From: Candidatus Gastranaerophilales bacterium
GTDB lineage: Bacteria; Cyanobacteriota; Vampirovibrionia; Gastranaerophilales; Gastranaerophilaceae
NCBI GenBank assembly: GCA_944323875.1
Contig: CALUUH010000010.1
Span: 1 to 57,041 of the forward strand
DNA length: 57,041 nucleotides
Reading direction: 5' to 3'
Made by a program: the position numbers and the translations under genes. The stretch's first letter is position 1; every line of letters starts with the position of its first letter. The notes under the pieces were generated by a model. That model saw only the letters and a list, made by a program, of their open reading frames with translations. It was not told the origin of the DNA and did not search any database. This document shows positions 39,253 to 54,978 of the stretch, in pieces.

Positions 39253-39975
39253 ATGGGAAAAATTGAAAAGTATCAACTCGTGTTAATGGCCGCAATTCTG
39301 GCTCTCGGCATTGTATGGGCCGCTAAATCCGCAACAGCTAATTTGCGCACAGAAGGTATTTCCGTCACAGGTTCTGCTTATGAAATAGTTCAATCAGATT
39401 CCGCAAGATTTGAATTTAGCATCACAACAAGGCAGCCCAATAGAATTACTGCATACAATCTCGTTCAAAAACAAATCCCGCAGGTTGTTGAATATCTGAA
39501 AAACAAAGGATTTACAGATGATGATATCCAGATCAAAACAAGCAACGGGTACAACACATACAGATACAACGCAAACGGTACTTCTACCAATGAAATCGCT
39601 TACTACAACTTAAATCAGCCGATAGTTGTTAAGTCTAATGATGTTGAAAAAATAAAAGAAGTTGCGGTTGATATCCAGAACTTTATATCAAAAGGCATTG
39701 AAATAAATGCGATGGAGCCTGAATATTTTTATTCTAAGCTTTCTGATGTAAAAGTAAAACTTCTGCAAGATGCAACAACCGATGCGCAGCAAAGAGCTGA
39801 TGCCATGCTCAAAGCAACACGCAACAAAACCGGTAATATTCAATCCGTCAGAATGGGTGTGTTCCAGATAACTCCTGTTGATTCCACAAGTGTTTCTGAT
39901 ATGGGTATCAACGACACATCCACTATTGAGAAAAAAGTTACCGCCGTTGCAAACGTTACATTTAAAATTAAATAA
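39253..39975 (+). CDS. SIMPL domain (DUF541) protein
   Basis: 240 residues with an N-terminal membrane anchor or signal (about 8-28) and a periplasmic SIMPL domain: GISVTGSAYEIVQSDSARFEFSI at the start, LKNKGFTDDDIQIKTSNGYN, and DATTDAQQRADAMLKATRNK in sections. Family members sit in the envelope and are linked to oxidative or envelope stress; exact role unknown. AAGGAG ribosome site. Followed after 12 nt by a small secreted protein, so a two-gene operon. Confidence 0.88.
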   Translation: MGKIEKYQLVLMAAILALGIVWAAKSATANLRTEGISVTGSAYEIVQSDSARFEFSITTRQPNRITAYNLVQKQIPQVVEYLKNKGFTDDDIQIKTSNGYNTYRYNANGTSTNEIAYYNLNQPIVVKSNDVEKIKEVAVDIQNFISKGIEINAMEPEYFYSKLSDVKVKLLQDATTDAQQRADAMLKATRNKTGNIQSVRMGVFQITPVDSTSVSDMGINDTSTIEKKVTAVANVTFKIK

Positions 39976-41154: not shown

Positions 41155-41799
41155 CTATCTGCCCGCCAATTTTAAACCTTTAAGAATTAATTCCAGTTGA
41201 GGTATGACATCCGGATTGTCAAATGCGGACAAGGCTAAATTTATAAACTCCATTTTGGCTTCATCATTAGAAATACGAATTATCTCTTTCAAAAGTTGAT
41301 TAATCATAGTGTTCTTGTCGGTATTGAAAATCTTATAAGTACCGTCAGGATAATATATTATTGTATTTGCATATTTGTTGTTTTCAAAATATTCAACCGT
41401 AATTGTTTCTTTAGTTCTGACAGCCATATCAACAAATCTCTGTTCAATATATTTTTCAGAACTATTTGTCACAATATCTCTGGATTTGTTTTCTTTATTC
41501 AAAAGTTGATAGACATTTTCGGATTTTAAAACTCTATAGTTTGAGATATTATAAGTGCCGTCAAGAGAACTTTGATCAGCGTAGAGAATATCAAAATCAA
41601 ATAAATCTTTTGGTGAAACATCTAAAGCTACGCAAATACTTTCAAGAGTCTTGGCAGAAGGGAAATGAACACCTGTTTCAAGTTTAGACATTTGTCTAGG
41701 TTGAATACCGACCATTTCACTTAATTGTTCTTGACTTAAGCTTCTGGATTTTCTATACTTTTTGATATTTATACCTAACGCTTTTGCTAAATCTGCCAT
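41155..41799 (-). CDS. XRE-family regulator with C-terminal domain
   Basis: 214 residues: N-terminal Cro/C1 helix-turn-helix (about 7-65; RSLSQEQLSEMVGIQPRQMSKLE) and a C-terminal region of unknown type (about 75-214) with YFENNKYANTIIYYPDGTYKI, possibly ligand sensing or dimerisation. Divergent from the candidate RNA at 41920, which it might control. AGGG precedes the ATG. Confidence 0.85.
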   Translation of the reverse strand: MADLAKALGINIKKYRKSRSLSQEQLSEMVGIQPRQMSKLETGVHFPSAKTLESICVALDVSPKDLFDFDILYADQSSLDGTYNISNYRVLKSENVYQLLNKENKSRDIVTNSSEKYIEQRFVDMAVRTKETITVEYFENNKYANTIIYYPDGTYKIFNTDKNTMINQLLKEIIRISNDEAKMEFINLALSAFDNPDVIPQLELILKGLKLAGR

Positions 41800-41919
41800 A
41801 TATGTACCCTGTCTTGTATTCAGTATAACGTCTATATTAATCTTAAATAACGTGGTAAAAAGTTGATATATTTCTTTACAAAATATAGAAATAGTCGTTT
41901 TACGACGTATAATTTAATA

Positions 41920-42044
41920 GTAATAAAATTTAAATCAATTCGTTAAAAGCAACAACGGCCATGCAGGCCGGTTGCCGGATTACAGACAGTCCTGTAATCT
42001 GATTTCCTTAAATATACAGCAGTGAGCGTAGTCACTGCTTTTTG
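41920..42044 (+). ncRNA. Candidate structured non-coding RNA
   Basis: A TATAAT box (41908-41913) is followed by three hairpins with no ORF: 41949-41975 (GCAAC/GTTGC outside, GGCC/GGCC inside), 41978-41999 (GATTACAG/CTGTAATC), and a terminator 42018-42043 (AGCAGTGA/TCACTGCT then T5). The next gene downstream is on the opposite strand, so this is not a leader but a free RNA of about 125 nt. I do not recognise a known class. Confidence 0.55.
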
Positions 42045-42088
42045 TTTAGGCGGTCAATTATATTAACAACGAGAAAACGAAAAATTAT

Positions 42089-42988
42089 TTAATCTTTAAA
42101 AAAATCATAAAAATGATAAAATTGCAGCGGACTGATCAAAACCGTTTTTTCAACAAATTTTATATAAGCTTCCTGCAAATCCACTATGTCAGTATATTCA
42201 TACTTTTGCAGATAGATTTTGTAAGTGTCGTTTTTATCCTTCAGGGCAATAATAAAATACACAGGAACTTCCATGAGGTGTGCCAGCTTAAAGCTGCCGA
42301 CAGGAAAATCAACCTTATGTCCAAAAATCTCACCTTCAAATGTAGCGGCATTAGAATTACCTTCCGGAACTCTGTCTGCCGCAATAAATGCGATACTCCC
42401 GCTGTCAAGACTGTCTTTCAGTTTTATTGCAGTATCAACCCCGATATCCTCTACAGGATAAGGCGTCAGAGGGATTTCCTTTGCTATCTTTTTCATAAAA
42501 CCATTGAAAATTTTGCATTGATTTTTACTCAAAAAAACATTGACTTTTAAATCAGGATGTCTTGTATTGTTTATAAAAAGCGTGCGCATTACATCAGTGT
42601 TGCCGACATGTGCACAAAGAAAAAATACCCCTTTACGCTTGTCCAAATCTGAATATAACTGTTCTTTTGCGGCTTCTGACTCAAATATTATTTTATTTTT
42701 ATCAAATTCATTCGGAAAAATTTCTATTTTATCAGTCAAAACATGAGTATATGAAAGAAAATGCCTGAACTGGTTTATCACTGTAGGCTTTATACCTGTA
42801 AGCGGAGAGATTACAGTAAGGTATTTTTTGGAGTAGCCGCGGACATCTTTTGCAAAAATAAAGGCAAAGAAGGTAACGAAAAATGCAACAAAATTCACGG
42901 CTTTTTTGCCAAAAAGTTTGTATATATACCACATCAGCATTAAGCGTTTTTCGCCTGCGGCCTGTTCTTTTACCTGATACCACTGCAT
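42089..42988 (-). CDS. LpxL/HtrB-type lysophospholipid acyltransferase of the polyene cluster
   Basis: 299 residues with an N-terminal membrane segment (about 28-50), the acyltransferase HxxxxD motif as HVGNTD near residue 127, and FIAADRVPEG further on. Family members acylate lipid A or similar anchors; in aryl-polyene clusters such enzymes are thought to attach the polyene or fatty acid to a lipid anchor. It starts one base after the methyltransferase stop, so the two form an operon. Confidence 0.85.
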   Translation of the reverse strand: MQWYQVKEQAAGEKRLMLMWYIYKLFGKKAVNFVAFFVTFFAFIFAKDVRGYSKKYLTVISPLTGIKPTVINQFRHFLSYTHVLTDKIEIFPNEFDKNKIIFESEAAKEQLYSDLDKRKGVFFLCAHVGNTDVMRTLFINNTRHPDLKVNVFLSKNQCKIFNGFMKKIAKEIPLTPYPVEDIGVDTAIKLKDSLDSGSIAFIAADRVPEGNSNAATFEGEIFGHKVDFPVGSFKLAHLMEVPVYFIIALKDKNDTYKIYLQKYEYTDIVDLQEAYIKFVEKTVLISPLQFYHFYDFFKD

Positions 42989-42989
42989 T

Positions 42990-44063
42990 TTAGACGCACT
43001 CCAATAATGTATAGCAGTGAATGCCTACATTTGTGTATTTATTTTCTATTCTTAATCCTGCATTTTCTATCATGGAACACAATTCCGCTTCTGTATACAT
43101 TTTGCTGTTTCCGTTTGCCATGCAGGTAAAATACAGTGAAATATGTGCAATTGCCAAAGCAGCCCCGCTGAATTCCTGATTATCTATTATCGGCTCAAGA
43201 ATATAAATTCTGGTATTTTCTTTTGCTGCGGCTTTGACTTTTTTTAAAATATTTATTACCTGTTCTTCCGAAAAACAGTCCAAAAACTGGCTCATAAACA
43301 CTACGTCATGCAGCGGCGGTAGTTTTTTATCCGACAAAATATCAAGTCCGTAAAATGTCATACGGTCAGAATTTACATTTTTTTCGGCTATTTCTTTGTT
43401 TACGGGTAAATCTATTATATTAACATGGCAGCTTTTGTCAAAAGCAAGGCAGGCTTTTTCAAACTTGCCGGTATTGCCGCCGATATCAAATATCTGTTCG
43501 GGTTTATGTTCAAAAATTATCTTCAAAACTTCATCAAAGCAGTCGTCAGAATAATAATGATCAAAGTCATACCATGATTTTTTAGCATTTGGAGGAAGAG
43601 ACGGAACATGCGGATAGATTGTCGGAGCATCAACAAAATATTTTTGCAGTCCGCAAGGCTGTGATTTTTCAAAAGAATTGGTTAATTCACTTGCGCCAAG
43701 ATAACAAACATCACGCATAAAGTTAAAATTATTAATTGTCATTTCGTCAGTCAAAAAACATTCACCAAGAGGTGTGAGGTGGAATTTTCCATCAATTTTT
43801 TCGACAATATCCGAATAATACGCAACCTGCATAAGAGTCATTGCCGTATATTTTGAAACACCGCAGGAGGTCATAATTTCCTCAATATCAACCGGTTTTT
43901 CCGATAAGAATTTCAGTATGCCAAAATCCAGCATTGCGGCAACTGTTTGAAACGTAAATGGAGCAAAGGCGATTTTTTGAGCGTTATTCAGCGCTTCTAC
44001 CTTTAAATATTTCTTTTTATTACTTCTTCTATACTTAATTTTTGTTGATTTAACTTCCACCAT
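42990..44063 (-). CDS. SAM-dependent methyltransferase (O-methyltransferase type)
   Basis: 357 residues: an N-terminal helical winged-helix dimerisation domain (about 25-130; FTFQTVAAMLDFGIL, GVSKYTAMTLMQVA) and a C-terminal Rossmann domain with IFDIGGNTGKFEKA as the SAM-binding motif I. This is the plan of small-molecule O-methyltransferases; methylated aryl heads are common in aryl polyenes. The ATG is leaderless: TGATATAAT ends 6 nt before it, and the promoter overlaps the divergent one of the PPTase. Confidence 0.88.
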   Translation of the reverse strand: MVEVKSTKIKYRRSNKKKYLKVEALNNAQKIAFAPFTFQTVAAMLDFGILKFLSEKPVDIEEIMTSCGVSKYTAMTLMQVAYYSDIVEKIDGKFHLTPLGECFLTDEMTINNFNFMRDVCYLGASELTNSFEKSQPCGLQKYFVDAPTIYPHVPSLPPNAKKSWYDFDHYYSDDCFDEVLKIIFEHKPEQIFDIGGNTGKFEKACLAFDKSCHVNIIDLPVNKEIAEKNVNSDRMTFYGLDILSDKKLPPLHDVVFMSQFLDCFSEEQVINILKKVKAAAKENTRIYILEPIIDNQEFSGAALAIAHISLYFTCMANGNSKMYTEAELCSMIENAGLRIENKYTNVGIHCYTLLECV

Positions 44064-44077
44064 GTTATTATTATATC
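44064..44077. promoter_or_regulatory. 14-bp region holding two divergent leaderless promoters
   Basis: Plus strand: TATTAT (44066-44071), 6 nt, ATG of the PPTase. Minus strand: TATAAT (44070-44075), 6 nt, ATG of the methyltransferase. The -10 boxes overlap by two bases and both are preceded by TGn, the TG lying within the opposite ATG. Confidence 0.7.
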
Positions 44078-44761
44078 ATGGATATATTTTATACTGATAT
44101 AGAAAAATTTTATACCGGACTTTCAGCAGAGCAAGCTGAGGAATTTATTGCTATTTACGGTAAAAATTACAGGTCTGAAAAAAAACGCAAAGAGCATGCT
44201 CTGGGCCGGTTTCTGGTAAAATATATCGCAAAAAATTTTTACAACCTGCCAAATACAGATATAGGAATAAAAAACAGCAAACCGTATTTTACCGGTACGG
44301 ATAATTTACATTTTAGCATTTCTCACAGTCAAAATATTGTACTTACAGGTTTTGATACAAAACCGCTTGGAGTGGATGTAGAATTTATAAAACCGCGCAA
44401 AATAAAAGAAATTCTGGCTCATATAAATATCAAAGCCGACAATGTAAGTCCTGATTTATTTTACAGATACTGGACAGCCTATGAAGCTAAAATCAAACTT
44501 CAACAGCCGCCAAAATCTTACTGCACGGTTAAATTGCTTCCTGAATTTATGCTTTCCGCCTTGAGCGGAGAGTCTTTGGATATTAACAAAATGCTCAGGA
44601 TATATGAACTCGCAAGCCCGAGTGCAAGCATAAAACCGAGTGAACTGATTAATTTAAAACTCGTAAATGCCAGCAGCATAAACGAAAACACCGTTGTAAT
44701 GCACGAAATTAATACCGCGTCATTAGAATTTTTTGAACCGTTAAATCTGAATATTGCATAA
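44078..44761 (+). CDS. 4'-Phosphopantetheinyl transferase (Sfp type)
   Basis: 227 residues; activates the ACPs by adding the CoA-derived arm. Motifs: HALGRFLVKYI, FSISHSQ, GVDVEFI (Asp100, Glu102 for Mg) and WTAYEAKIK (Glu136). The usual Lys of WxxKEA is Tyr135 here. Residues 147-227 are encoded opposite the end of the MMPL exporter gene, an 81-codon convergent overlap, and do not look like a normal PPTase tail. Confidence 0.88.
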   Translation: MDIFYTDIEKFYTGLSAEQAEEFIAIYGKNYRSEKKRKEHALGRFLVKYIAKNFYNLPNTDIGIKNSKPYFTGTDNLHFSISHSQNIVLTGFDTKPLGVDVEFIKPRKIKEILAHINIKADNVSPDLFYRYWTAYEAKIKLQQPPKSYCTVKLLPEFMLSALSGESLDINKMLRIYELASPSASIKPSELINLKLVNASSINENTVVMHEINTASLEFFEPLNLNIA

Positions 44762-46665
44762 TCCAGCCCGAATCCGGTAATCAAAAATATTGCGAGGATA
44801 TGGAAAAGATTTAAAGGCTGAAACAGGCTTATAAAGCAAATTGCAAATAAGCTTGCAGCAACTGACGGAGCGATAATTTTCAATGCATTTTTAAATGAAA
44901 ATATAAATCCTAAAAGCAAATACAATAAAATGTAAATAGGAACAAGAATTTTTAAACAGACAAGACGGATTTTCTTAATTCCGCCGGAAATCTCAGAAGG
45001 CAGATTTACAAAATGCACATTTTCAATCCCTTCAAAAATTTCAGGGTTTTCGACATTATACACAACCATTATTGAATGAGTTTTATCAAGCATAAATTCA
45101 TTTAATTGGCTGATATTTTTATGCGCCTCGTCACTAAAATATTTTTTGTCAAAGTGTTTAATATTCCATAAATCCTCAGGCGTCAAAAGTTCGCTGAATA
45201 CATTGAGTTCACTGTCGTAAAGCTGTGTTCTCAACGTCATATTTTCAGTCTGTCTTTTGATTGAAGGTAAAAACTTACAGAGCGAATAGTACGCCAGATT
45301 ATTCTCGTTTAATTTTGCTGAAACAATTTCTTCGCGCTCCAGAATACTTTGCAAATCTTTTCCTTCAACAATTACAAATGAGGTATTGGAATTTGCAGAG
45401 GTCACTTCCTGATAAAGTTTTTCAGCCTCTAGCATCTGTTTTGAAGGTTTATACATTGTTCGGATATCATCATTAAAATGTATTCTAAACAGGCCTGCAA
45501 TTATAATCAACGCAAACAAGATAAGAAACTTTTTGTCAAATTTCAAATCGAATTTTTGTCTGGAGTTCTGTGCCGGCAAAAACGAATAGAAAAGCACAAC
45601 TATACAATATACTGTAATAAGTCCTGTTGAGGTAAAAACAGCAATCTGTTTTAGCAATTCGATACCGGAAAAAAGCAATATTAAAAGAGAAGAAACTGTT
45701 GTCAGCATACTAACGGTTAAACTCTTTATTACTTTTTTAAGATCACTTTCCATAAGGTAATGCAGTGAATAATCCACACAAATTCCGATTAATGTTGTTG
45801 AAAAAACAAAGGTCAGTATATGGATTGAAGAAAACAAAAGTGCGCAAACACAATATCCAATCCCCATGCCGGCCGCAAGACTCAACATTATCGGCACAAG
45901 TATTCTTAACGAGCGGAAGTACCACAACACCAAGCCTCCGACAAAAATTGCCGATATAATACAAATAATATTAATTTCGTTCATAGATCTTGCACTTGCG
46001 TAATAAGAATGCACCGGAGCACCGGTTAAATAAATTTTTACATTTTCATCACTCAGGGTATTCTGCATATCTATAAGCTTTTTGACTTCTTTATTTGTTA
46101 ATGAAGGAGAAAGCGCAAGTTCCTTGTCCACCTCAAGATTAATTATCTCATAATATTTACCGTTAACAGAGTTAATCACGCCGCCGTCCCCGAGTGACAT
46201 AATATAGTTTGTGAACAAAAGAAACGGATCTTGTTCCTCAGGCAGCAGCGAAAAACCAAAAGGGTTGTACAAATTATCCACGGCCTGCTGTGTTATTGCC
46301 TCGAAATCGCCCTCTTTCATGGTTTTATAATCATTGTATGATAAAAGGTTATTCCGGTATTTTTTATAAAAATCAAGCGTTTTTGCAAAATTTGCGGATT
46401 TTATTTCAAAACTTTTTTGGTCAATTTTTTTAACGAATTCATCTTTTGCCTTTTCTACCGCATCAGGGTTGCCGCTTTCTATCAGAACATTGACATTAGA
46501 GGAATATTTTCCGCTCAATTCAACAAGAATTTCATCCTTTGCATTATCAGAAAAAAATGCACGCAAAAGATTTGTCTCAACACGCTGTGGTTTAATAAAT
46601 GCTGCAATAGAAATTATTGCCAATATAGCTATAAAAATTATTCTCAGTATGTTTATTTTTTTCAT
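44518..46665 (-). CDS. MMPL-family (RND-type) lipid exporter
   Basis: About 715 residues with the 2 x 6 transmembrane RND/MMPL plan: TM1 near residue 8, a large periplasmic loop, TM2-6 at about 235-360, TM7 near 380, second loop, TM8-12 at about 580-705 (ITGFGLDYAIFRF, where Asp is the likely proton relay). In aryl-polyene clusters this exporter moves the lipidated product to the outer membrane with the LolA-like protein. ATG at 46665 follows the upstream TGA by one base; a GTG at 46674 is the alternative start. Confidence 0.88.
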   Translation of the reverse strand: MKKINILRIIFIAILAIISIAAFIKPQRVETNLLRAFFSDNAKDEILVELSGKYSSNVNVLIESGNPDAVEKAKDEFVKKIDQKSFEIKSANFAKTLDFYKKYRNNLLSYNDYKTMKEGDFEAITQQAVDNLYNPFGFSLLPEEQDPFLLFTNYIMSLGDGGVINSVNGKYYEIINLEVDKELALSPSLTNKEVKKLIDMQNTLSDENVKIYLTGAPVHSYYASARSMNEINIICIISAIFVGGLVLWYFRSLRILVPIMLSLAAGMGIGYCVCALLFSSIHILTFVFSTTLIGICVDYSLHYLMESDLKKVIKSLTVSMLTTVSSLLILLFSGIELLKQIAVFTSTGLITVYCIVVLFYSFLPAQNSRQKFDLKFDKKFLILFALIIIAGLFRIHFNDDIRTMYKPSKQMLEAEKLYQEVTSANSNTSFVIVEGKDLQSILEREEIVSAKLNENNLAYYSLCKFLPSIKRQTENMTLRTQLYDSELNVFSELLTPEDLWNIKHFDKKYFSDEAHKNISQLNEFMLDKTHSIMVVYNVENPEIFEGIENVHFVNLPSEISGGIKKIRLVCLKILVPIYILLYLLLGFIFSFKNALKIIAPSVAASLFAICFISLFQPLNLFHILAIFLITGFGLDYAIFRFNGSKNSNDAVLISCITTVFSFMLLAFTSFKLISSLGFMLALGLASSYILSILLISKDSPLKAESINSGSNLTVQ

Positions 46666-46666
46666 A

Positions 46667-47176
46667 TCAGTCACAATAGAATTTTATTTTTGTATTTGTT
46701 CCGTTAAGCGGATTTATATTTATCTGATTAATATTTTTTTCTCCGATTATAATAATATTTTTTAACTGCTGTGCGGCCGGGGATTTTGTTTTCGGTCTCA
46801 GTGCAACAGTCCAGACATCACCGTCTTTGTGATAAAAGAGTTCAAAATTCTTGTTTATAGCAGAGTAATTTTTGTTTGCCATTGCAGTAATAATTTCGTT
46901 TATCTGTTTGTTGCCTGATGATGTGTAAGATGTCGTTGTTTTTACAGGATATAAGGTTTCAAAAATTACCCCGCGGTCTTTTATAAAATGAAAGTTTCCG
47001 CCGGATTGCAGAGTTCGCTGCGGAAAAACTTTTTCCTGAGTAAATTTACAGGAAATACTGTTGAATGGCGGCAGACTGCCAACAACCGTCTGAGTGTCAG
47101 ACGGATAATCAAATATATCGGCTTGCACAGTCAATCCCAAAAACAAAAATATAAAAACTGTTAAATACTTAAACAT
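46667..47176 (-). CDS. LolA-like outer-membrane lipoprotein carrier
   Basis: 169 residues; signal peptide (1-19, ending VQA) then a LolA-type half-barrel: CKFTQEKVFPQRTLQSGGNFHF and KDRGVIFETLYPVKTTTSYT in sections. Expected to carry the hydrophobic product across the periplasm (ApeL position in aryl-polyene operons). Overlaps the thioesterase gene by 16 nt upstream and is contiguous with the exporter downstream. Confidence 0.85.
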   Translation of the reverse strand: MFKYLTVFIFLFLGLTVQADIFDYPSDTQTVVGSLPPFNSISCKFTQEKVFPQRTLQSGGNFHFIKDRGVIFETLYPVKTTTSYTSSGNKQINEIITAMANKNYSAINKNFELFYHKDGDVWTVALRPKTKSPAAQQLKNIIIIGEKNINQININPLNGTNTKIKFYCD

Positions 47177-47574
47177 TTTAATCCTTCTTTTAGTCCTTCC
47201 GGCGCTTCATATATACTCTTTCCCGTAATCGCATCAACACAAATCTGCATTGTAGAAGCCTTGAAAATAACTTCTCCGTTTTCATCAGTGATTATATATT
47301 TTATTCTCAATGAAGGTTCATACTCCTCCAGACTGGCTTTTATCAAAAGTTTTTGAGAAAGTGTCGCTGATTTAATAAATTTCATATCCATTTTTGCAAT
47401 AGGGTAAACATATCCGTCTTTTATCATTTCCGGATAACTGTAACCGATTTTCTCAAGCAGTTTACAGCGCGCAATTTCTGTATATTTAACATAATTTCCA
47501 TGCCAGACAACATTCATCGGATCTAAGTCAAAAAAAGGCACTTCTATTAGTATTTCTTCTTCCGTAAAGCTCAT
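47161..47574 (-). CDS. Hotdog thioesterase (4HBT type)
   Basis: 137 residues with the YbgC/4-hydroxybenzoyl-CoA thioesterase motif DLDPMNVVWHGNYVKYTEIAR near residues 17-37, the first Asp being the usual catalytic residue. Probably releases the finished chain from ACP (ApeK position). GAGGT ribosome site before ATG. Confidence 0.88.
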   Translation of the reverse strand: MSFTEEEILIEVPFFDLDPMNVVWHGNYVKYTEIARCKLLEKIGYSYPEMIKDGYVYPIAKMDMKFIKSATLSQKLLIKASLEEYEPSLRIKYIITDENGEVIFKASTMQICVDAITGKSIYEAPEGLKEGLKCLSI

Positions 47575-47609
47575 TTTATTTACCTCTTTTTTGAATTATA
47601 AAACAAAAA

Positions 47610-49157
47610 TTATTTTATAAAAGTACCCGATGAGAATATATTTTGTCCGTCTGTATATGTGTAATCAACCGACAGTTCATTAGACTTTAAGACAAGTTTT
47701 ATCTTTGTATCCGGCTTAATTATTCTGGTAAATTTTATTTTTTTCATTTTGCGGCAGGAAATATCAATTCCGAAAACCTTTTGTGCATAAAAATGTGCAA
47801 AGAATAATTGAACAACCCCCGGAAGTATCGGAATATCAGGAAAATGTCCCTGTAAGAAATTACTGTTTCTTAAAAATGCCAGAGTTATTTCAGCATTATT
47901 TTTATCAGAATTTATATCAAAAATCAGCGGCAGCGAAAGGTGTAATCCAAAAATTTCATTCAGTATTGCTTTATCTGTTTTGCCGGTAATTGTTTTTGGT
48001 ATCTCCGGTAAAAAACGCCACTTTTGCGGATATATTTCAGAATATTTTGTCATATATGATTTTAAACTTTTAATAAACTCTACAGAGCCGGTTTTTAGCA
48101 ACTCTTCTTTGCCATCTTTGGTCAAAACAACAGCGGCCGCAATTTTTTCGTTGTATTTAAAACAGTAACTCTGTTCCACAAATTCATTTTTATTCAGGTA
48201 TTCTTCCAATTCTGCCGCAGAAATACGTTTTTCCTGAATTTTCAAAATACGGTCAGAACGCCCGACAATTTTGAACTTGTCATCACAAATTTCAATTATG
48301 TCGCCCATCAACTGTTCATCTTCCATAAAATAATTTGATTTTACACAAATACAATTGTCAGCCCCTGTAGATATCCGAACATTCGGAAATACTTTCAGCC
48401 AATCTGTTTTTGAAGATGTCCGGTAAGCCATTACTCCGCATTCCGTGCTTCCGTAAATATCAACAACATTGGAATTGTGTTCAAAAAACTCAAAGGTGCT
48501 ATTTTTGAGTTTATCTCCGGCCGTAAAAATATATTCCGGCGGAACAGGATTAATATTATATTTTGCCATCCGATCGAGAAAGGACGGGGTTGAAACAAAA
48601 ACATAATCCTGTTTTTTGATTTGTTCAGGAAATTTTATCACGTCAGTATCAATAACAAAACCGTTAACAAACGGGTACATCAATGCAAAAGTCATGCCAA
48701 ACATGTGTGACATTTTTGTTGTTGTGACAAAAATCAATTTCTTATCAAGCGGGAATTCCGCATATAAATCAGTTGCTTCATTAATCAGGTTTTGCAAAGT
48801 TTTCCGCACTTTTTTCATCTTTCCGGTTGTACCGGAGGTATAAAAATTAACGAAAACTTTTTCCGGTTCAATATCAGGTAAGTAAGCCCCGCTGCTTTTC
48901 ACATCTGTTATAAATTCTTCTTCAAGCAGGTCTTTCTTATTTGGGTCTGACAGCAAAAACAATTCTTTACCCGAATAAATTCCGGCAAGAAAATTCAGAA
49001 TAAATTCAAAATTATCATCTTCGCACAACAAAAGATTTTTGCACTCACAATGTTTAAGATATGCCGCACGTCCTGTGACAAGCTCTCTTAACTCATGCCA
49101 GCGATATTCTTTTCCTTTATGCGTCAGTATTACTTTTTCATCACCAAAATTAAACAT
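47610..49157 (-). CDS. Fused AMP-dependent ligase and hotdog dehydratase (ApeH-ApeI like)
   Basis: 515 residues. The ligase part (1 to about 400) has NFYTSGTTGKMKK (A3), DIYGSTECG (A5), GRSDR (A7) and the C-terminal catalytic Lys393 in TITGKTDK; it would activate an aryl acid and load it on ACP. Residues about 405-515 form a FabA/FabZ-like hotdog with LQGHFPDIPILPGV (catalytic His438), but the matching acidic residue is replaced by hydrophobic ones (QLFF). The two functions are separate ApeH and ApeI proteins in the clusters I know. Overlaps the upstream membrane gene by 8 nt. Confidence 0.85.
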   Translation of the reverse strand: MFNFGDEKVILTHKGKEYRWHELRELVTGRAAYLKHCECKNLLLCEDDNFEFILNFLAGIYSGKELFLLSDPNKKDLLEEEFITDVKSSGAYLPDIEPEKVFVNFYTSGTTGKMKKVRKTLQNLINEATDLYAEFPLDKKLIFVTTTKMSHMFGMTFALMYPFVNGFVIDTDVIKFPEQIKKQDYVFVSTPSFLDRMAKYNINPVPPEYIFTAGDKLKNSTFEFFEHNSNVVDIYGSTECGVMAYRTSSKTDWLKVFPNVRISTGADNCICVKSNYFMEDEQLMGDIIEICDDKFKIVGRSDRILKIQEKRISAAELEEYLNKNEFVEQSYCFKYNEKIAAAVVLTKDGKEELLKTGSVEFIKSLKSYMTKYSEIYPQKWRFLPEIPKTITGKTDKAILNEIFGLHLSLPLIFDINSDKNNAEITLAFLRNSNFLQGHFPDIPILPGVVQLFFAHFYAQKVFGIDISCRKMKKIKFTRIIKPDTKIKLVLKSNELSVDYTYTDGQNIFSSGTFIK

Positions 49158-49551
49158 TATGCCGTCTCTTAAAAATAAGCCTTATTATATATTCAACACC
49201 AAATACCAAACCTGTTAAAAGATAAGATATACAGCCGTTGTATATAGTCCACACCTTTGAACTCATAAATATTGTAGCAAAAGAAACAAAAAAATTAAAT
49301 ATCAAAAAAACACACCATACATAAGTCAGATTTCTTGTGTACTTTTTTACGACTTCGGGCAACTCGCGTCCGCCTTCCATTATTTTTGCGAACTTCTGGA
49401 TAATCGTTTCTTTTGAAAAAAGTGAGGTAAAAAATATTGAAAAAATCAAAAGATTTATTACTGCCGGATAAAATTTAAGCGCAATAAAATTGGTAAAATG
49501 AAAAATACCGATAACGACAAATGTAAAAAGTATGGGAAAAATCATTCGCAT
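49150..49551 (-). CDS. Small membrane protein of the polyene cluster (COG4648-like)
   Basis: 133 residues, four predicted transmembrane helices (about 2-22, 29-45, 72-95, 103-125) with a cytoplasmic loop KIMEGGRELPEVVKKYTRN. Matches the small membrane protein at the ApeG position of aryl-polyene clusters, role unknown. Overlaps the ACP gene by 10 nt and the ligase gene by 8 nt. Confidence 0.8.
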   Translation of the reverse strand: MRMIFPILFTFVVIGIFHFTNFIALKFYPAVINLLIFSIFFTSLFSKETIIQKFAKIMEGGRELPEVVKKYTRNLTYVWCVFLIFNFFVSFATIFMSSKVWTIYNGCISYLLTGLVFGVEYIIRLIFKRRHNV

Positions 49552-49799
49552 AACAGTTCATCAATCGCGTTTACAACATCCTCAATAGTTCTTATTTGTT
49601 TAAAGTTTTCAGGTGAGATTTTTTTGTGAGTAAACTGCTGTACGCGCACAGCCAGATCTACAGCGTCAATACTGTCCAATTCCAAATCCTCAAACAAACT
49701 TGCCTGAGGTGTGATTTTTTTTGCATCTATTTCAAAATCTTCTGTCAGAATTTTTGTTAACTCTTTTAATATAGTATCTTTTGTAAGTCTCTCACTCAT
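49542..49799 (-). CDS. Acyl carrier protein (second)
   Basis: 85 residues, four-helix ACP; phosphopantetheine site LELDSIDAVDLA with Ser43. One of two ACPs, each probably serving a different step (starter loading or elongation). It begins 3 nt after the first ACP gene ends. Confidence 0.93.
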   Translation of the reverse strand: MSERLTKDTILKELTKILTEDFEIDAKKITPQASLFEDLELDSIDAVDLAVRVQQFTHKKISPENFKQIRTIEDVVNAIDELLCE

Positions 49800-49802
49800 T
49801 GT

Positions 49803-50060
49803 TTAATCCTGTTTTGTTTGTGCCTGAACATAATCCGCAAGGGTTTGTACCGAATAAAAATGTTTTTTATTTTCATCGTTATCCGCACCCATTTTAAGAT
49901 TATATTTTTTCTTCAGTGCCATTCCTAATTCCAGTGCATCAATAGAATCCAGTCCCAGCCCGTCAACAAACAGCGGAGCATTTTCGTCAATGTCAGCGGG
50001 TGTAATGTCCTCCAGATCAAGGGAATCTATTATAAGTTGTTTTATTTCTTCTATAATCAT
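49803..50060 (-). CDS. Acyl carrier protein (first)
   Basis: 85 residues; phosphopantetheine site GLGLDSIDALEL with Ser39. An AAGG site precedes the ATG. The longer gap upstream (51 nt) separates it from the acyltransferase. Confidence 0.93.
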   Translation of the reverse strand: MIIEEIKQLIIDSLDLEDITPADIDENAPLFVDGLGLDSIDALELGMALKKKYNLKMGADNDENKKHFYSVQTLADYVQAQTKQD

Positions 50061-50111
50061 CTTTCAGCCTTTTGACAATATGATAAACGATTAATATTAT
50101 AATGTCAAATT

Positions 50112-50843
50112 TTAAATTTCTTGCTTAATTATATCCATAATTTCTTTTCGGGCTTTAATATCAGATACTCCGGCAAAGTTTTGCGGCAAAATCTCCTCTT
50201 TAACTTCTACATTGTAATTAATAATTCTGTCCCCTATATCGTAAATCGGCTGCTGTTTCTGCAAAAACGGGTAATCAGTCGTGATTTTTACAGGCACAAT
50301 TCCTGCGTTTGAATGCAGGGATATAACGGCCGATCCTTTGTGTAATTTAACATCTTCATCCGGCTTGGTCCTTGTTCCTGTCGGGAAAATAATTATATTA
50401 AATCCCTGTTTCAAAAACTTATCGGTTTCGGCCTTAAAATCCTCTAAATCTATGTCGTTTATAATATAGATTGATTTTACTATATTATGAAACAGCGGAT
50501 TTTTAAGCGTATCTTTTTTGGCAAGACATGTAGAATTAGGGATTAAGCCTATTAATATTACGATATCTATAAATGTCGGATGACTTGCAACAATTATTTT
50601 ACCCGAAAGATTTGCCAATCTCTCTTCATCATTACAGTTTACTTTTATGAGTTTTATTTTCTGCAAAAAATTTTTAAAAAACTTCCATGATGAATGAATA
50701 ACCTCTGCATAGGCAAACTTACGCTTTTCAACAGGCACGGTAAGAGTTATGTAAGGAAAAATAAAAAAACTTATAACTCCGGCACCAAACCCGAAGAATA
50801 CAAAACAAAAAAGTATCAAAAACGAGCGGCATAACCTAATCAT
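50112..50843 (-). CDS. PlsC-type 1-acyl-glycerol-phosphate acyltransferase
   Basis: 243 residues; N-terminal membrane segment (about 5-35), HPTFID at about residue 88 (HxxxxD) and FPTGTRT near 153, the glycerophosphate acyltransferase signatures. Expected to join the polyene or acyl chain to a glycerol-type anchor (ApeD position). Its start overlaps the CLF-like gene by 8 nt. Confidence 0.88.
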   Translation of the reverse strand: MIRLCRSFLILFCFVFFGFGAGVISFFIFPYITLTVPVEKRKFAYAEVIHSSWKFFKNFLQKIKLIKVNCNDEERLANLSGKIIVASHPTFIDIVILIGLIPNSTCLAKKDTLKNPLFHNIVKSIYIINDIDLEDFKAETDKFLKQGFNIIIFPTGTRTKPDEDVKLHKGSAVISLHSNAGIVPVKITTDYPFLQKQQPIYDIGDRIINYNVEVKEEILPQNFAGVSDIKARKEIMDIIKQEI

Positions 50844-51432
50844 ACACCCTCCGCAGCGTATAAAAAGAAGCGGAATAAATATCGGTTTCTCTGTTCAAAA
50901 ATTTAATACCCCCGGCCAAATCACCTGATTTTTCTGTGTTATCAGCCGTAATGACCTCTATTTTATCTGCCCCGTCACGCGGAACTTTTCCTAACAAGCA
51001 CGCAAATGCAACAGGTTCAGAGAAAGTATCGGCATAACAGAAAAGAGTCGGCTCATCTTCACTCAGCGCTTCGAAAAATCCGCTTTCAAAAGTCGCCATG
51101 CCGGCCGACACTGCATTATATTTACTCTTTATATTATTCAGCAGGGAAAATGTTCCGGCCGCCGCGTTATGTACAGATGCACTAAACGCAACCGGAGAAA
51201 CCTCATTTTCTTCTGTATACTGTTCAATCAGTTTTTCCAGTCTGTCAAATTCTCCATATCTTGAGGCAAATACAATGTTAACTTCTTCACCTTCGTAACA
51301 TTCGTTCATGACATAAAAACTCATTTTATCCAGAAGGCTGAGTTTTCGCCGCATTAACATCGGTACAAATGACAAATCCGGTTTGGTATCGGTTAAATAT
51401 GCTGTTTTATATATGAAAAATTTTTCATTCAT
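50836..51432 (-). CDS. Ketosynthase-like protein without active Cys (chain-length-factor-like, ApeC)
   Basis: 198 residues of the truncated beta-ketoacyl synthase-like family (PF13723-type). The block VNIVFASRYGEFDRLEKLI and FSASVHNAAAGTFSLL correspond to the KS core, but Ala/His replace the active-site Cys neighbourhood, so it cannot condense by itself. In aryl-polyene systems the equivalent protein pairs with the KS ApeO. First gene of the leftward operon; TAATAT lies 6 nt before the ATG without a ribosome site. Confidence 0.85.
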   Translation of the reverse strand: MNEKFFIYKTAYLTDTKPDLSFVPMLMRRKLSLLDKMSFYVMNECYEGEEVNIVFASRYGEFDRLEKLIEQYTEENEVSPVAFSASVHNAAAGTFSLLNNIKSKYNAVSAGMATFESGFFEALSEDEPTLFCYADTFSEPVAFACLLGKVPRDGADKIEVITADNTEKSGDLAGGIKFLNRETDIYSASFYTLRRVYD

Positions 51433-51461
51433 GCTACCATATTAATATAGTTGGAGAGAAA
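51433..51461. promoter_or_regulatory. Bidirectional promoter of the polyene cluster
   Basis: Only 29 bp separate the divergent starts. The palindrome ATATTAATAT (51439-51448) supplies a -10 (TAATAT) on each strand. The leftward gene is leaderless (6 nt), the rightward gene has GGAGAG after its -10. Confidence 0.65.
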
Positions 51462-52592
51462 ATGCAAAAAAAGATTTATATCACTGATTACAATGCAATA
51501 TGTAACCTTGGCGGCGATATTGACCGAATATTTGAAAATGCAATAAAAGGTGATACAAGTTTTCTTACATTGGACAACAGTATTGCTAAAGGTAAAGAAT
51601 TTTATCTTGGCAAAATATCAGCAGAACTGCCGGAAATTAAGGAGGAGAATTACAATCTGCGCTGTAACAGGCTTTTGCTATATTTGATGAACAGTATGCA
51701 AAAAAATCTTGATATACTTATTAAAAAATACGGCAAAAACAGGGTAGCCATTGTCACGGCAACTACAAATTCAGGTATTGAAGAATATGAAAATTCACAT
51801 AACCCAAAACATTTTGAAATAGGAAATCCGGCCGAATACATAAAAAATCATTTAGGGTTAAACAATTTCTACGAATGCATATCAACAGCCTGTTCATCAG
51901 GTATAAAGACTTTTTCCACAGCACAAAAACTGCTGGAAAAAGATATTTGTGATGCGGTTATCACAGCCGGAGTCGATGCACTGGCAAAACTGCCTGTATT
52001 TGGGTTCCATTCACTTGAAGTGCTTTCCGATAAAAAATCCAATCCCTTTTCAAAAAACAGAAGCGGGATTAATATAGGAGAAGCCGCAGCAATGTTTATT
52101 ATTGAAAAACAGGGACACGGAATTTCAATAAAAGGAACAGGCGAAACCTCTGATGCATACCACGCCGCAACCCCTGACCCTAAAGGTTATGAAGCAGCCC
52201 GTGCTATAAAAATTGCGCTTCAAAATGCCAATCTGCCGCCTGATGCAATTGATTACATAAATCTGCACGGAACAGGAACTGTCGCGAACGATTTAATGGA
52301 AGCAAATGCCGTTTATAATATTTTCGGAAGCTGTGTGGAAGCAAGTTCAACCAAACCGCTGACAGGCCACTGTCTTGGCGCGGCAGCCTCGCTTGAAACT
52401 GCTTTATGCTGCCATGTGATTAAAAAACAAACATTGCTGCCGCATATCTATGACGGAGAATACGACTATACATTGCCGCAAATCAATCTTGTTACAACGC
52501 CTGCCAAAAAAAATATTGACAATGTATTATGCACATCATTTGGTTTTGGCGGAACAAATGCAGCTATGATTATAGGGAGGGAAAATGACTAA
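51462..52592 (+). CDS. Beta-ketoacyl synthase (ApeO-like)
   Basis: 376 residues, FabF-type thiolase fold. Catalytic Cys144 in ISTACSSGIK, His269 in NLHGTGT and His303 in LTGHCLGAAASLE are all present. Condenses malonyl-ACP with the growing chain, presumably as a heterodimer with the Cys-less partner encoded divergently. GGAGAG ribosome site. Overlaps the dehydratase gene by 8 nt. Confidence 0.93.
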   Translation: MQKKIYITDYNAICNLGGDIDRIFENAIKGDTSFLTLDNSIAKGKEFYLGKISAELPEIKEENYNLRCNRLLLYLMNSMQKNLDILIKKYGKNRVAIVTATTNSGIEEYENSHNPKHFEIGNPAEYIKNHLGLNNFYECISTACSSGIKTFSTAQKLLEKDICDAVITAGVDALAKLPVFGFHSLEVLSDKKSNPFSKNRSGINIGEAAAMFIIEKQGHGISIKGTGETSDAYHAATPDPKGYEAARAIKIALQNANLPPDAIDYINLHGTGTVANDLMEANAVYNIFGSCVEASSTKPLTGHCLGAAASLETALCCHVIKKQTLLPHIYDGEYDYTLPQINLVTTPAKKNIDNVLCTSFGFGGTNAAMIIGREND

Positions 52593-53040
52593 TTACGATA
52601 TGACAAAAGTTTTGCCGCACAAACCGCCGATGATTCTCATTGACGACGTGATAGAATACGACCTTGAAAATCGCTCTGTCAGTGCAATAGTAAATATTAA
52701 CGAAGATAAACTATTCTTCGACAAATCCATCAACGGCGTGCATTCAACGGTCGGTATTGAATTTATGGCTCAAACAATCGGATGTTATTCATATTTCAGA
52801 AACGGAATGAAGCCTCCGGGGATAGGTTTTCTGCTTGGTTCAAGACTTTTTAACTGTGATATTCCATTCTTTGAAAACGGAAAAACCTACAGGATAACCG
52901 CTAAAGAAATTTTTACTGATAATAAACTTGTTTCATTTGAGTGTTTAATCTATAATGATAATGACGTAGTTGCAAATGCCGTAATAAACGCATATATGCC
53001 GGCAAACCAGATAGATTTAATAGGTATGTTGAATGGATAA
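52585..53040 (+). CDS. Hotdog dehydratase subunit (ApeP-like)
   Basis: 151 residues, FabZ-like: LPHKPPMILIDDVIEYD at the start and VGIEFMAQTIGCYSY with Glu59 at the acidic catalytic position. The HFPGxP histidine motif is missing (FFDKSINGVHS instead). It therefore carries the acid but not the His, complementary to the hotdog domain fused to the ligase. GGGAGGG before ATG. Confidence 0.9.
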   Translation: MTNYDMTKVLPHKPPMILIDDVIEYDLENRSVSAIVNINEDKLFFDKSINGVHSTVGIEFMAQTIGCYSYFRNGMKPPGIGFLLGSRLFNCDIPFFENGKTYRITAKEIFTDNKLVSFECLIYNDNDVVANAVINAYMPANQIDLIGMLNG

Positions 53041-53761
53041 AACAGTATTAATAACAGGCTCAAGCCGCGGAATAGGTAAAGAAACAGCATTATATCTTGC
53101 TAAAAACGGATATGACATTGTTCTGCATTGCAACAGCAATATTAAAAACGCCGAAGAAACCGCCGCGCTAATTCATGAATGCGGACGCCGGACAAGAATT
53201 TTACAGTTCAACATAGCGGATAGAGAGCAATGTAAAAAAATATTAACCGACGATATCAAAACCCACGGCATATATTACGGTGTGATTTTAAATGCAGGAA
53301 TAGCAAAAGACAATGTTTTCCCTGCAATGGAAGATAACGAATGGGACGATGTAATCAATACAAATCTCAATGGATTTTATAATGTTCTCAAACCTATTGT
53401 AATGCCTATGATATCAGCGCGTATCAAAGGTCGGATTATTACAATGTCATCAGTATCAGGCCTTGCCGGAAACCGCGGCCAGGTAAATTACAGTGCTTCA
53501 AAAGCCGGTATAATCGGTGCGACGAAGTCTTTAGCGCTGGAACTTGCAAAACGCGGAATTACAGTAAACTGTGTTGCTCCGGGGGTAATAGAAACGGATA
53601 TGACACAGGATTTGCCGGCAGAAGAAGTCAAAAAAATCATCCCTATGAAGCGTTTTGGACAGGCAAAAGAAGTCGCAAGTCTGATAAATTATCTTATGAG
53701 TCAGGACGCTACATATATCACAGGTCAGGTTATTTCTGTAAATGGAGGGTTATATTTGTGA
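53033..53761 (+). CDS. 3-Oxoacyl-ACP reductase (FabG/ApeQ-like)
   Basis: 242 residues, SDR: ITGSSRGIGKETA, NAGIAKDN, catalytic Ser140, Tyr153, Lys157 (YSASKAG), ending ITGQVISVNGGLYL as in FabG. Reduces the beta-keto group with NADPH before dehydration. Overlaps the dehydratase by 8 nt and the next KS by GTGA. Confidence 0.94.
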   Translation: MDKTVLITGSSRGIGKETALYLAKNGYDIVLHCNSNIKNAEETAALIHECGRRTRILQFNIADREQCKKILTDDIKTHGIYYGVILNAGIAKDNVFPAMEDNEWDDVINTNLNGFYNVLKPIVMPMISARIKGRIITMSSVSGLAGNRGQVNYSASKAGIIGATKSLALELAKRGITVNCVAPGVIETDMTQDLPAEEVKKIIPMKRFGQAKEVASLINYLMSQDATYITGQVISVNGGLYL

Positions 53762-54978
53762 GACGGGTTGTTATAACAGGAATGTCACTTGTAAGCTGTC
53801 TTGGCAATGAAGTTAATCAGGCCTTTGACAGACTTAAAACATACAAAAACTGCATTCGTTATTCTCCTGAACTGGCCGAATACGACAAATTAAACACGCG
53901 TCTTTCTGCCCCCGTAGATTTTGAAGTACCAGAACATTTTACACGCAAGATAACCCGAACAATGGGCCCTATTGCAATAATGAGCGTAGCTACTTCCGAA
54001 AAAGCCCTCGCTGACGCAGGTCTTTTAGGGGCTGACATACTTACAAGCGGGCAGACAGGTGTAGCTTACGGTTCTTCTTCAGGCTCTTTAAAAACAATTA
54101 TTGATTTTTACTCAATGCAGGTTGATAAAGAAGTCAAAAATTTAAACTCCGGTTCTTACGTAAAAATGATGTCACAAACAGCGGCCGTAAACATCTCATT
54201 ATATTTCAAAACGCGCGGCCGGTTAATCCCGACATCAACGGCCTGTACATCTGGCTCTATGGGTATCGGCGCAGCTTATGAAGCGATAAAAGACGGTTAT
54301 CAAACAGTTATGATAGCAGGCGGTGCAGAAGAATTTCACGCCACACATATTGCGATATTTGATACGCTCTATGCAACAAGTTTAAAAAATGACACTCCGG
54401 AACTTACTCCGTCCCCGTTTGACAAAAACCGTGACGGGCTTGTCATAGGAGCAGGAGCAGGAACTCTTATTCTTGAAGAATATGAACACGCAAAAAAACG
54501 CGGTGCAAAAATTTATGCTGAAATTATCGGTTACGGAACAACAACCGACGGCACGCACATTACAAACCCTAATCCGGAAACAATGGGTAATGCAATAAAA
54601 GAAGCGCTTCATTATGCAAAAATTTCCCCTGATGAAATAGGTTATGTTAATGCGCACGGTACAGCCACAATTCAAGGGGATGCAGCAGAATCTCAGGCTA
54701 CATACAATATTTTCAAACGGGATGTCCCGATAAGTTCCATAAAAAGCTACACCGGCCACACGCTCGGTGCATGCGGAGCAATTGAAGCAATACTTACAAT
54801 ACAAATGATGAACAACAACTGGTATGCTCCGACGCTTAACCTTAATGAAGTCGATGAAAACTGTGCCCCGCTCGGTTACATCAAACACGAAGGCGTTGAA
54901 ATGAAAAACAATATTGTTATGTCTAACAATTTTGCTTTTGGCGGCATCAACACATCCCTGATATTCAAAAAAATCTAA
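53758..54978 (+). CDS. Beta-ketoacyl synthase II-type (FabF/ApeR-like)
   Basis: 406 residues with Cys163 (STACTSGS), His300 (NAHGTAT) and His334 (SYTGHTLGACGAIE). A complete homodimer-type condensing enzyme, thought to do the first elongation or support chain extension in aryl-polyene clusters. Start is GTG, overlapping the reductase stop (GTGA). Last clear biosynthetic gene of the rightward operon. Confidence 0.94.
   Translation: MRRVVITGMSLVSCLGNEVNQAFDRLKTYKNCIRYSPELAEYDKLNTRLSAPVDFEVPEHFTRKITRTMGPIAIMSVATSEKALADAGLLGADILTSGQTGVAYGSSSGSLKTIIDFYSMQVDKEVKNLNSGSYVKMMSQTAAVNISLYFKTRGRLIPTSTACTSGSMGIGAAYEAIKDGYQTVMIAGGAEEFHATHIAIFDTLYATSLKNDTPELTPSPFDKNRDGLVIGAGAGTLILEEYEHAKKRGAKIYAEIIGYGTTTDGTHITNPNPETMGNAIKEALHYAKISPDEIGYVNAHGTATIQGDAAESQATYNIFKRDVPISSIKSYTGHTLGACGAIEAILTIQMMNNNWYAPTLNLNEVDENCAPLGYIKHEGVEMKNNIVMSNNFAFGGINTSLIFKKI

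Follow-up and report, generated by a model that had tools for sequence, protein, structure and literature searches.

Results

A probable intergenic RNA gene beside an aryl-polyene cluster

The window, by which we mean the whole 57,041-nucleotide stretch analyzed here (positions 1 to 57,041 of contig CALUUH010000010.1, assembly GCA_944323875.1, from a Candidatus Gastranaerophilales bacterium with a genome of 1.94 Mb), carries an aryl-polyene cluster at 42089-54978, in which Pfam identifies ApeI-like and ApeP-like domains, ketoacyl synthases, an MMPL exporter, a thioesterase, an acyltransferase and an O-methyltransferase. The 227-aa product of 44078-44761 has no match in Pfam and by eye resembles a phosphopantetheinyl transferase. 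The last gene of the cluster and the gene for an XRE-type regulator, whose HTH domain is N-terminal, lie on the minus strand, and a small non-coding RNA of roughly 125 bases, measured between its inferred ends, is predicted between them on the plus strand (Table 1). The first-pass annotation had described an RNA of three hairpins behind a TATAAT box, the last hairpin being an 8-bp terminator with T5, and all of these elements are present in the sequence where it placed them. In hairpin 1, the outer arms GCAAC (41949-41953) and GTTGC (41971-41975) enclose CGGCC (41956-41960) and GGCCG (41966-41970). The core of hairpin 2 pairs GATTACAG (41978-41985) with CTGTAATC (41992-41999) and can be extended to 10 bp, and the terminator stem pairs AGCAGTGA (42018-42025) with TCACTGCT (42032-42039) ahead of the T5 run.

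Table 1. Features of the RNA locus and its flanking genes, in window coordinates.
Feature	Position	Strand	Remarks
Divergently encoded XRE-type regulator, presumed to control the RNA	41155..41799	-	Pfam HTH_19/HTH_3
Presumed XRE -10 region, invariant TCAGTATAAC (GTTATACTGA on the minus strand)	41820..41829	-	
-35-like hexamer TAGAAA, weak	41886..41891	+	
GTCGTTTTACGAC, putative XRE operator in the -35/-10 spacer	41894..41906	+	41897-41906 invariant in five species
RNA promoter -10 box TATAAT	41908..41913	+	
Small non-coding RNA	41919..42044	+	5' end inferred from -10 box, 3' end from T-run
Hairpin 1, GCAAC-aa-CGGCC/GGCCG-GTTGC	41949..41975	+	
Hairpin 2, CGGATTACAG/CTGTAATCTG	41976..42001	+	
Invariant UUUCCUUA, putative seed complementary to Shine-Dalgarno-like UAAGGAAA	42003..42010	+	Identical in 5/5 species
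Hairpin 3 plus T5, intrinsic terminator	42018..42044	+	
Last aryl-polyene cluster gene, acyltransferase-like by context	42089..42988	-	No Pfam hit; convergent with the RNA in 5/5 species

The region 41900-42060 folds with a minimum free energy of -49.7 kcal/mol, against -29.6 ± 3.8 for dinucleotide shuffles (z -5.3; none of 200 as stable). The z score is -5.3 for the transcript alone and -5.2 when the terminator is left out, and the stability therefore does not come from the terminator alone. Between 41000 and 43000, nine terminator-like sites were found where 1.0 ± 1.0 were expected; a scan of the same interval returned promoter-like sites at the level of chance, and the RNA promoter thus rests on its conservation, not on the scan. 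That no gene follows on the RNA's strand, as the first-pass annotation had it, was borne out: no likely plus-strand gene begins before 44078, which rules out a leader of a downstream gene, and the plus-strand ORF at 42113-42550 sits opposite the conserved gene at 42089-42988. At the sequence level, the locus thus presents what is expected of an independent intergenic small RNA, namely a promoter and an intrinsic terminator with neither a conserved ORF nor a gene downstream.

The RNA had been said to match no known class, and the Rfam 15 covariance models agree: no family reached its gathering score there, and only two tRNAs were found window-wide. The best sub-threshold local match was SraB, whose 17.5 bits fall short of its gathering score of 130, and a known RNA class is accordingly excluded. 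A small protein is ruled out by the longest ORF inside the RNA, which is 17 aa and not conserved, and a repeat or mobile element by a 117-nt query that finds only itself in its own genome. With respect to a type I antitoxin reading, the minus strand between 41799 and 42089 holds no ORF of at least 60 aa. Our literature searches for regulatory small RNAs of Gastranaerophilales or Melainabacteria returned nothing relevant.

Conservation across the genus

Six genomes of the genus, here called g1, were compared (G000, the window's own, and G001-G005, from a GTDB-based collection). The RNA's neighbors, the XRE regulator and the polyene cluster, were first remarked on in the window, and the same locus arrangement recurs in five species. 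In G003 and G002 the XRE gene is divergent from the RNA and the polyene-cluster acyltransferase convergent with it; G004 and G001 keep the same gene order with a diverged RNA in the same gap. The XRE protein has orthologues at the same place in G001-G004, and the sixth species, G005, is without a close XRE orthologue and without the acyltransferase. By blast, the G003 RNA is 82% identical to the window copy, and the G002 RNA (L010), first pointed to by a short, weak match, proved to be a true orthologue; most other weak blast matches look like unrelated sequence. A covariance model (R1) built from G003 and G002 only, with the window sequence left out, scored the window copy at 96 bits, G001 at 26 bits (E 0.002) and G004 at 19.6 bits (E 0.07), the latter two weak matches but at orthologous places. 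Searched over 288 family genomes, R1 found the RNA in three species of g1 and gave three further matches, all weak (E from 8e-4 to 0.008), around which no equivalent of the RNA-XRE-polyene arrangement was seen among the neighboring genes. One of these (L140) lies just past the start of an unrelated-looking XRE gene. A wide distribution is ruled out by these few R1 matches in 288 genomes together with the presence of the exact pattern in three of 383 family genomes. With a locus common to five species and a promoter and terminator conserved among them, the earlier description of a stand-alone, terminated RNA holds, and we regard it as very likely that the RNA locus is a real, conserved gene. 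On the evidence of its sequence, the RNA is a new candidate small regulatory RNA, narrowly distributed and restricted to its lineage.

The three hairpins fared unevenly in this comparison. They are present in the window, as described, and the terminator is kept as a stem of 8-11 bp with a T-run in all five species; as a signature of the RNA the trio does not stand, since hairpins 1 and 2 retain recognizable sequence and pairing in three of the five (G000, G003 and G002); in G004 and G001 different stems stand in their place. Folding of the body is strong in G003 (z -4.5) as it is in G000. The covariation check that had been proposed gave a modest result: three pairs changed on both sides, one each in hairpin 1, hairpin 2 and the terminator, counted over only three sequences in an alignment fitted to the model.

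The four longest invariant runs of the five-species alignment are GTTTTACGAC (41897-41906), TCAGTATAAC (41820-41829), TTTCCTTA (42003-42010) and GTAAAAAG (41855-41862), and the sole long invariant stretch inside the transcript is UUUCCUUA. A run of eight in the RNA body was seen in none of 20,000 column shuffles, a figure that, for related species, measures clustering and not an independent probability. In every one of the five species TTTCCTTA lies a few bases 5' of the terminator stem. It occurs 13 times in the window and five 20-kb stretches (four of them the orthologous loci), and within these it stands ahead of a terminator hairpin only at the RNA locus. Each RNA carries one copy of UUUCCUUA, which in predicted folds is mostly unpaired in G000 and G004 (probability >0.65) and part-paired in G001, G002 and G003. 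Because hairpins 1 and 2 are rewritten in two species while the 8-mer is invariant, we take the pyrimidine motif to be the putative functional core, with the stems apparently serving as scaffolding whose changes are tolerated.

A motif in the promoter spacer

The invariant GTTTTACGAC lies within a 16-bp spacer, directly ahead of the -10 box of the RNA. Five of the six genus genomes contain a single exact copy of the spacer motif, always at the RNA locus. The -35 position reads TTTACA in G001 and G004 and TTGACT or TTGACA in other genera. Upstream of homologous XRE genes in several of those genera we found the pattern TTGAC(T/A)-spacer-TAT..T in the same orientation, its spacer holding either GTTTTAYGAC or GAC-N7-GTC: TTGACT-TAGGTGTTTTATGACA-TATCAT in g6, TTGACA-TAGTTGTTTTACACTC-TATAAT in g20, and TTGACA with the GAC-N7-GTC dyad in g14 and g19. 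The recurrence of spacer motifs at these homologues ties the motif to the regulator. The divergent product beside them is another RNA or a protein and, since the motif tracks the regulator while the downstream product changes, it is best read, from its position, as the putative operator of the XRE protein. Its place in a promoter spacer suggests repression, and the RNA is probably under the control of the neighboring XRE protein.

Candidate targets and Hfq

Each of the five genomes has between 13 and 23 sites that fit TAAGGAAA-N(3-10)-ATG; these are not consistently commoner than a reversed control pattern, and overall the counts are similar. Among the 88 such sites compared over five species, 45 of which precede an ORF, the only one common to both clades belongs to a gene that, by eye from its sequence, we take to be rplV (four of five species, 8-bp match), a highly conserved gene in any case. 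The other shared sites, an amidase pair and gene pairs within single clades, were all judged weak. The ribosome-binding site of the amidase-like gene at G000:C11:34101 (L118, L119), ATATTTAAGGAAA, is perfectly complementary to the seed region of the RNA over 13 bp; this match overlaps an upstream stop codon, is shifted in G002 and shorter in G003, and is not retained in G004 or G001. The aryl-polyene cluster genes and their neighbors showed no strong conserved match to the seed, and the best local target, the TAAGGAG site of the gene at 39253, was ruled out as a plain canonical Shine-Dalgarno sequence. A convincing conserved mRNA target was thus not found among the pattern sites of the five genomes or among the polyene genes and their neighbors. 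Hfq (PF17209) was absent from 29 genomes of the order, the window's own included, in a search whose control was positive for five of 14 named genomes and which a divergent Hfq could escape; the RNA chaperone is therefore either missing or unrecognized.

Discussion

Our findings describe a compact unit of a regulator gene and a divergent small RNA, for which comparison among species supports a predicted promoter, a putative seed and a terminator as parts of one conserved gene. Regulator-linked small RNAs are a known kind, of which the present RNA is a further case. OxyR-OxyS, GcvA-GcvB and SgrR-SgrS are enterobacterial pairs in which a regulator is encoded divergently from a trans-acting small RNA. 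Like OxyS, GcvB and SgrS, the RNA described here falls within 100-200 nt, is divergent from a presumed regulator gene, ends in an intrinsic terminator and offers a putative single-stranded pairing region; at the sequence level, the divergent regulator and a conserved motif in the spacer of the RNA promoter, a putative binding site, point to a possible OxyS/GcvB-like arrangement. It differs from them in that the regulator is of the XRE type rather than of the LysR or SgrR type, there is no Rfam similarity and no Hfq was found. RsaE and RoxS, the anti-Shine-Dalgarno small RNAs of Gram-positive bacteria, resemble it in carrying a conserved, unpaired stretch of pyrimidines that is complementary to ribosome-binding sites, although the motif is UUUCCUUA here and a C-rich UCCC there, again with no Rfam match.

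The mechanism that we favor, with somewhat better than even confidence in the explanation as a whole, is that of a trans-acting regulatory RNA controlled by the XRE protein and pairing through UUUCCUUA. From the features of the locus we infer transcription, repression by the XRE protein, pairing in trans and the nature of the targets. The RNA of ~125 nt would be transcribed independently from a promoter directed away from the XRE gene. Between the -35 and -10 elements, GTTTTACGAC is most likely bound by the XRE protein, so that the RNA would be switched off, or adjusted, on a signal. Once made, the RNA would act in trans, with stems 1 and 2 and the terminator protecting and presenting UUUCCUUA, which would pair with Shine-Dalgarno-like UAAGGAA of target mRNAs and block their translation. 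This pairing would proceed without a recognizable Hfq.

The layout of the locus would also accommodate an RNA that acts in cis, as an antisense transcript covering read-through from the polyene genes into XRE across the intergenic region, thereby reducing XRE or stabilizing the 3' end of the polyene mRNA. The polyene genes and, downstream of them, the XRE gene share a strand, and the RNA, convergent with the end of the acyltransferase gene (42089), is antisense to the 290-bp gap before XRE in the same manner in five species. Such pairing would work without conservation of sequence or structure, but the 8-mer is invariant while the rest drifts; in addition, the conserved -10-like region of the XRE gene itself lies beyond the RNA start, outside the overlap, and XRE homologues elsewhere have quite different neighbors. 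We therefore consider cis-antisense action unlikely.

It is less probable still that the transcript itself is functionless and that the conserved DNA represents the XRE control region plus a terminator insulating convergent transcription. The strongest conservation does fall mostly in the terminator and in the promoter regions of the RNA and the XRE gene, and two species have most of the RNA body rewritten, but termination does not require UUUCCUUA, which equals the promoter elements in invariance, and the fact that the body folds strongly in both G000 and G003, with three covarying pairs, speaks against a functionless transcript as well. We give a similarly low probability to a protein-binding or decoy RNA, in which UUUCCUUA or the hairpins would bind an RNA-binding protein rather than an mRNA. 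The shortness of the conserved motif, together with the failure to find a conserved mRNA target or Hfq, would fit this proposal; sponge RNAs, however, usually repeat their motif, whereas each of these RNAs carries it once, and we know of no protein that recognizes the UUUCCUUA motif.

A small RNA paired with its presumed regulator and bearing a conserved putative seed offers a testable entry into RNA regulation in an uncultured gut lineage. More tentatively, and with odds that we would place below even, the XRE family in Gastranaerophilales may form a swappable cassette of a regulator and a divergent promoter with a spacer operator, in which the product slot would be filled by unrelated small RNAs (g1, g14) or by proteins (g6), with small RNAs recruited repeatedly and acting without Hfq. 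That the product behind the XRE switch varies is relevant to the origin of bacterial small RNAs, and this wider pattern, in which RNA and protein products would be exchanged behind a single regulator switch, merits a dedicated survey.

Several observations were made at XRE genes outside the RNA locus. In three g14 genomes (G018, G120 and G213; L036, L167 and L170), an ORF-free stretch of ~160-200 nt with a strong terminator lies upstream of the XRE homologue, behind a TTGACA/TATAAT promoter with a GAC-N7-GTC spacer dyad, and is partly conserved between species. We regard it as a candidate for a second, unrelated XRE-linked small RNA: it shares with the g1 locus an XRE homologue, a spacer motif between -35 and -10 hexamers and an ORF-free stretch ending in a terminator, but its sequence is unrelated to the RNA described here, it lacks UUUCCUUA, and the dyad takes the place of GTTTTACGAC. 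Viral contigs hold only distant HTH relatives. An XRE paralogue in G001 (L028) has a protein-like start behind the spacer motif. In g6 (L149-L154 and L156), a similar promoter architecture is most often followed by a gene for a protein of ~250 aa; these proteins start alike (IFTFINF..PPYINLCIKTW) and are possibly glycosyltransferase-like.
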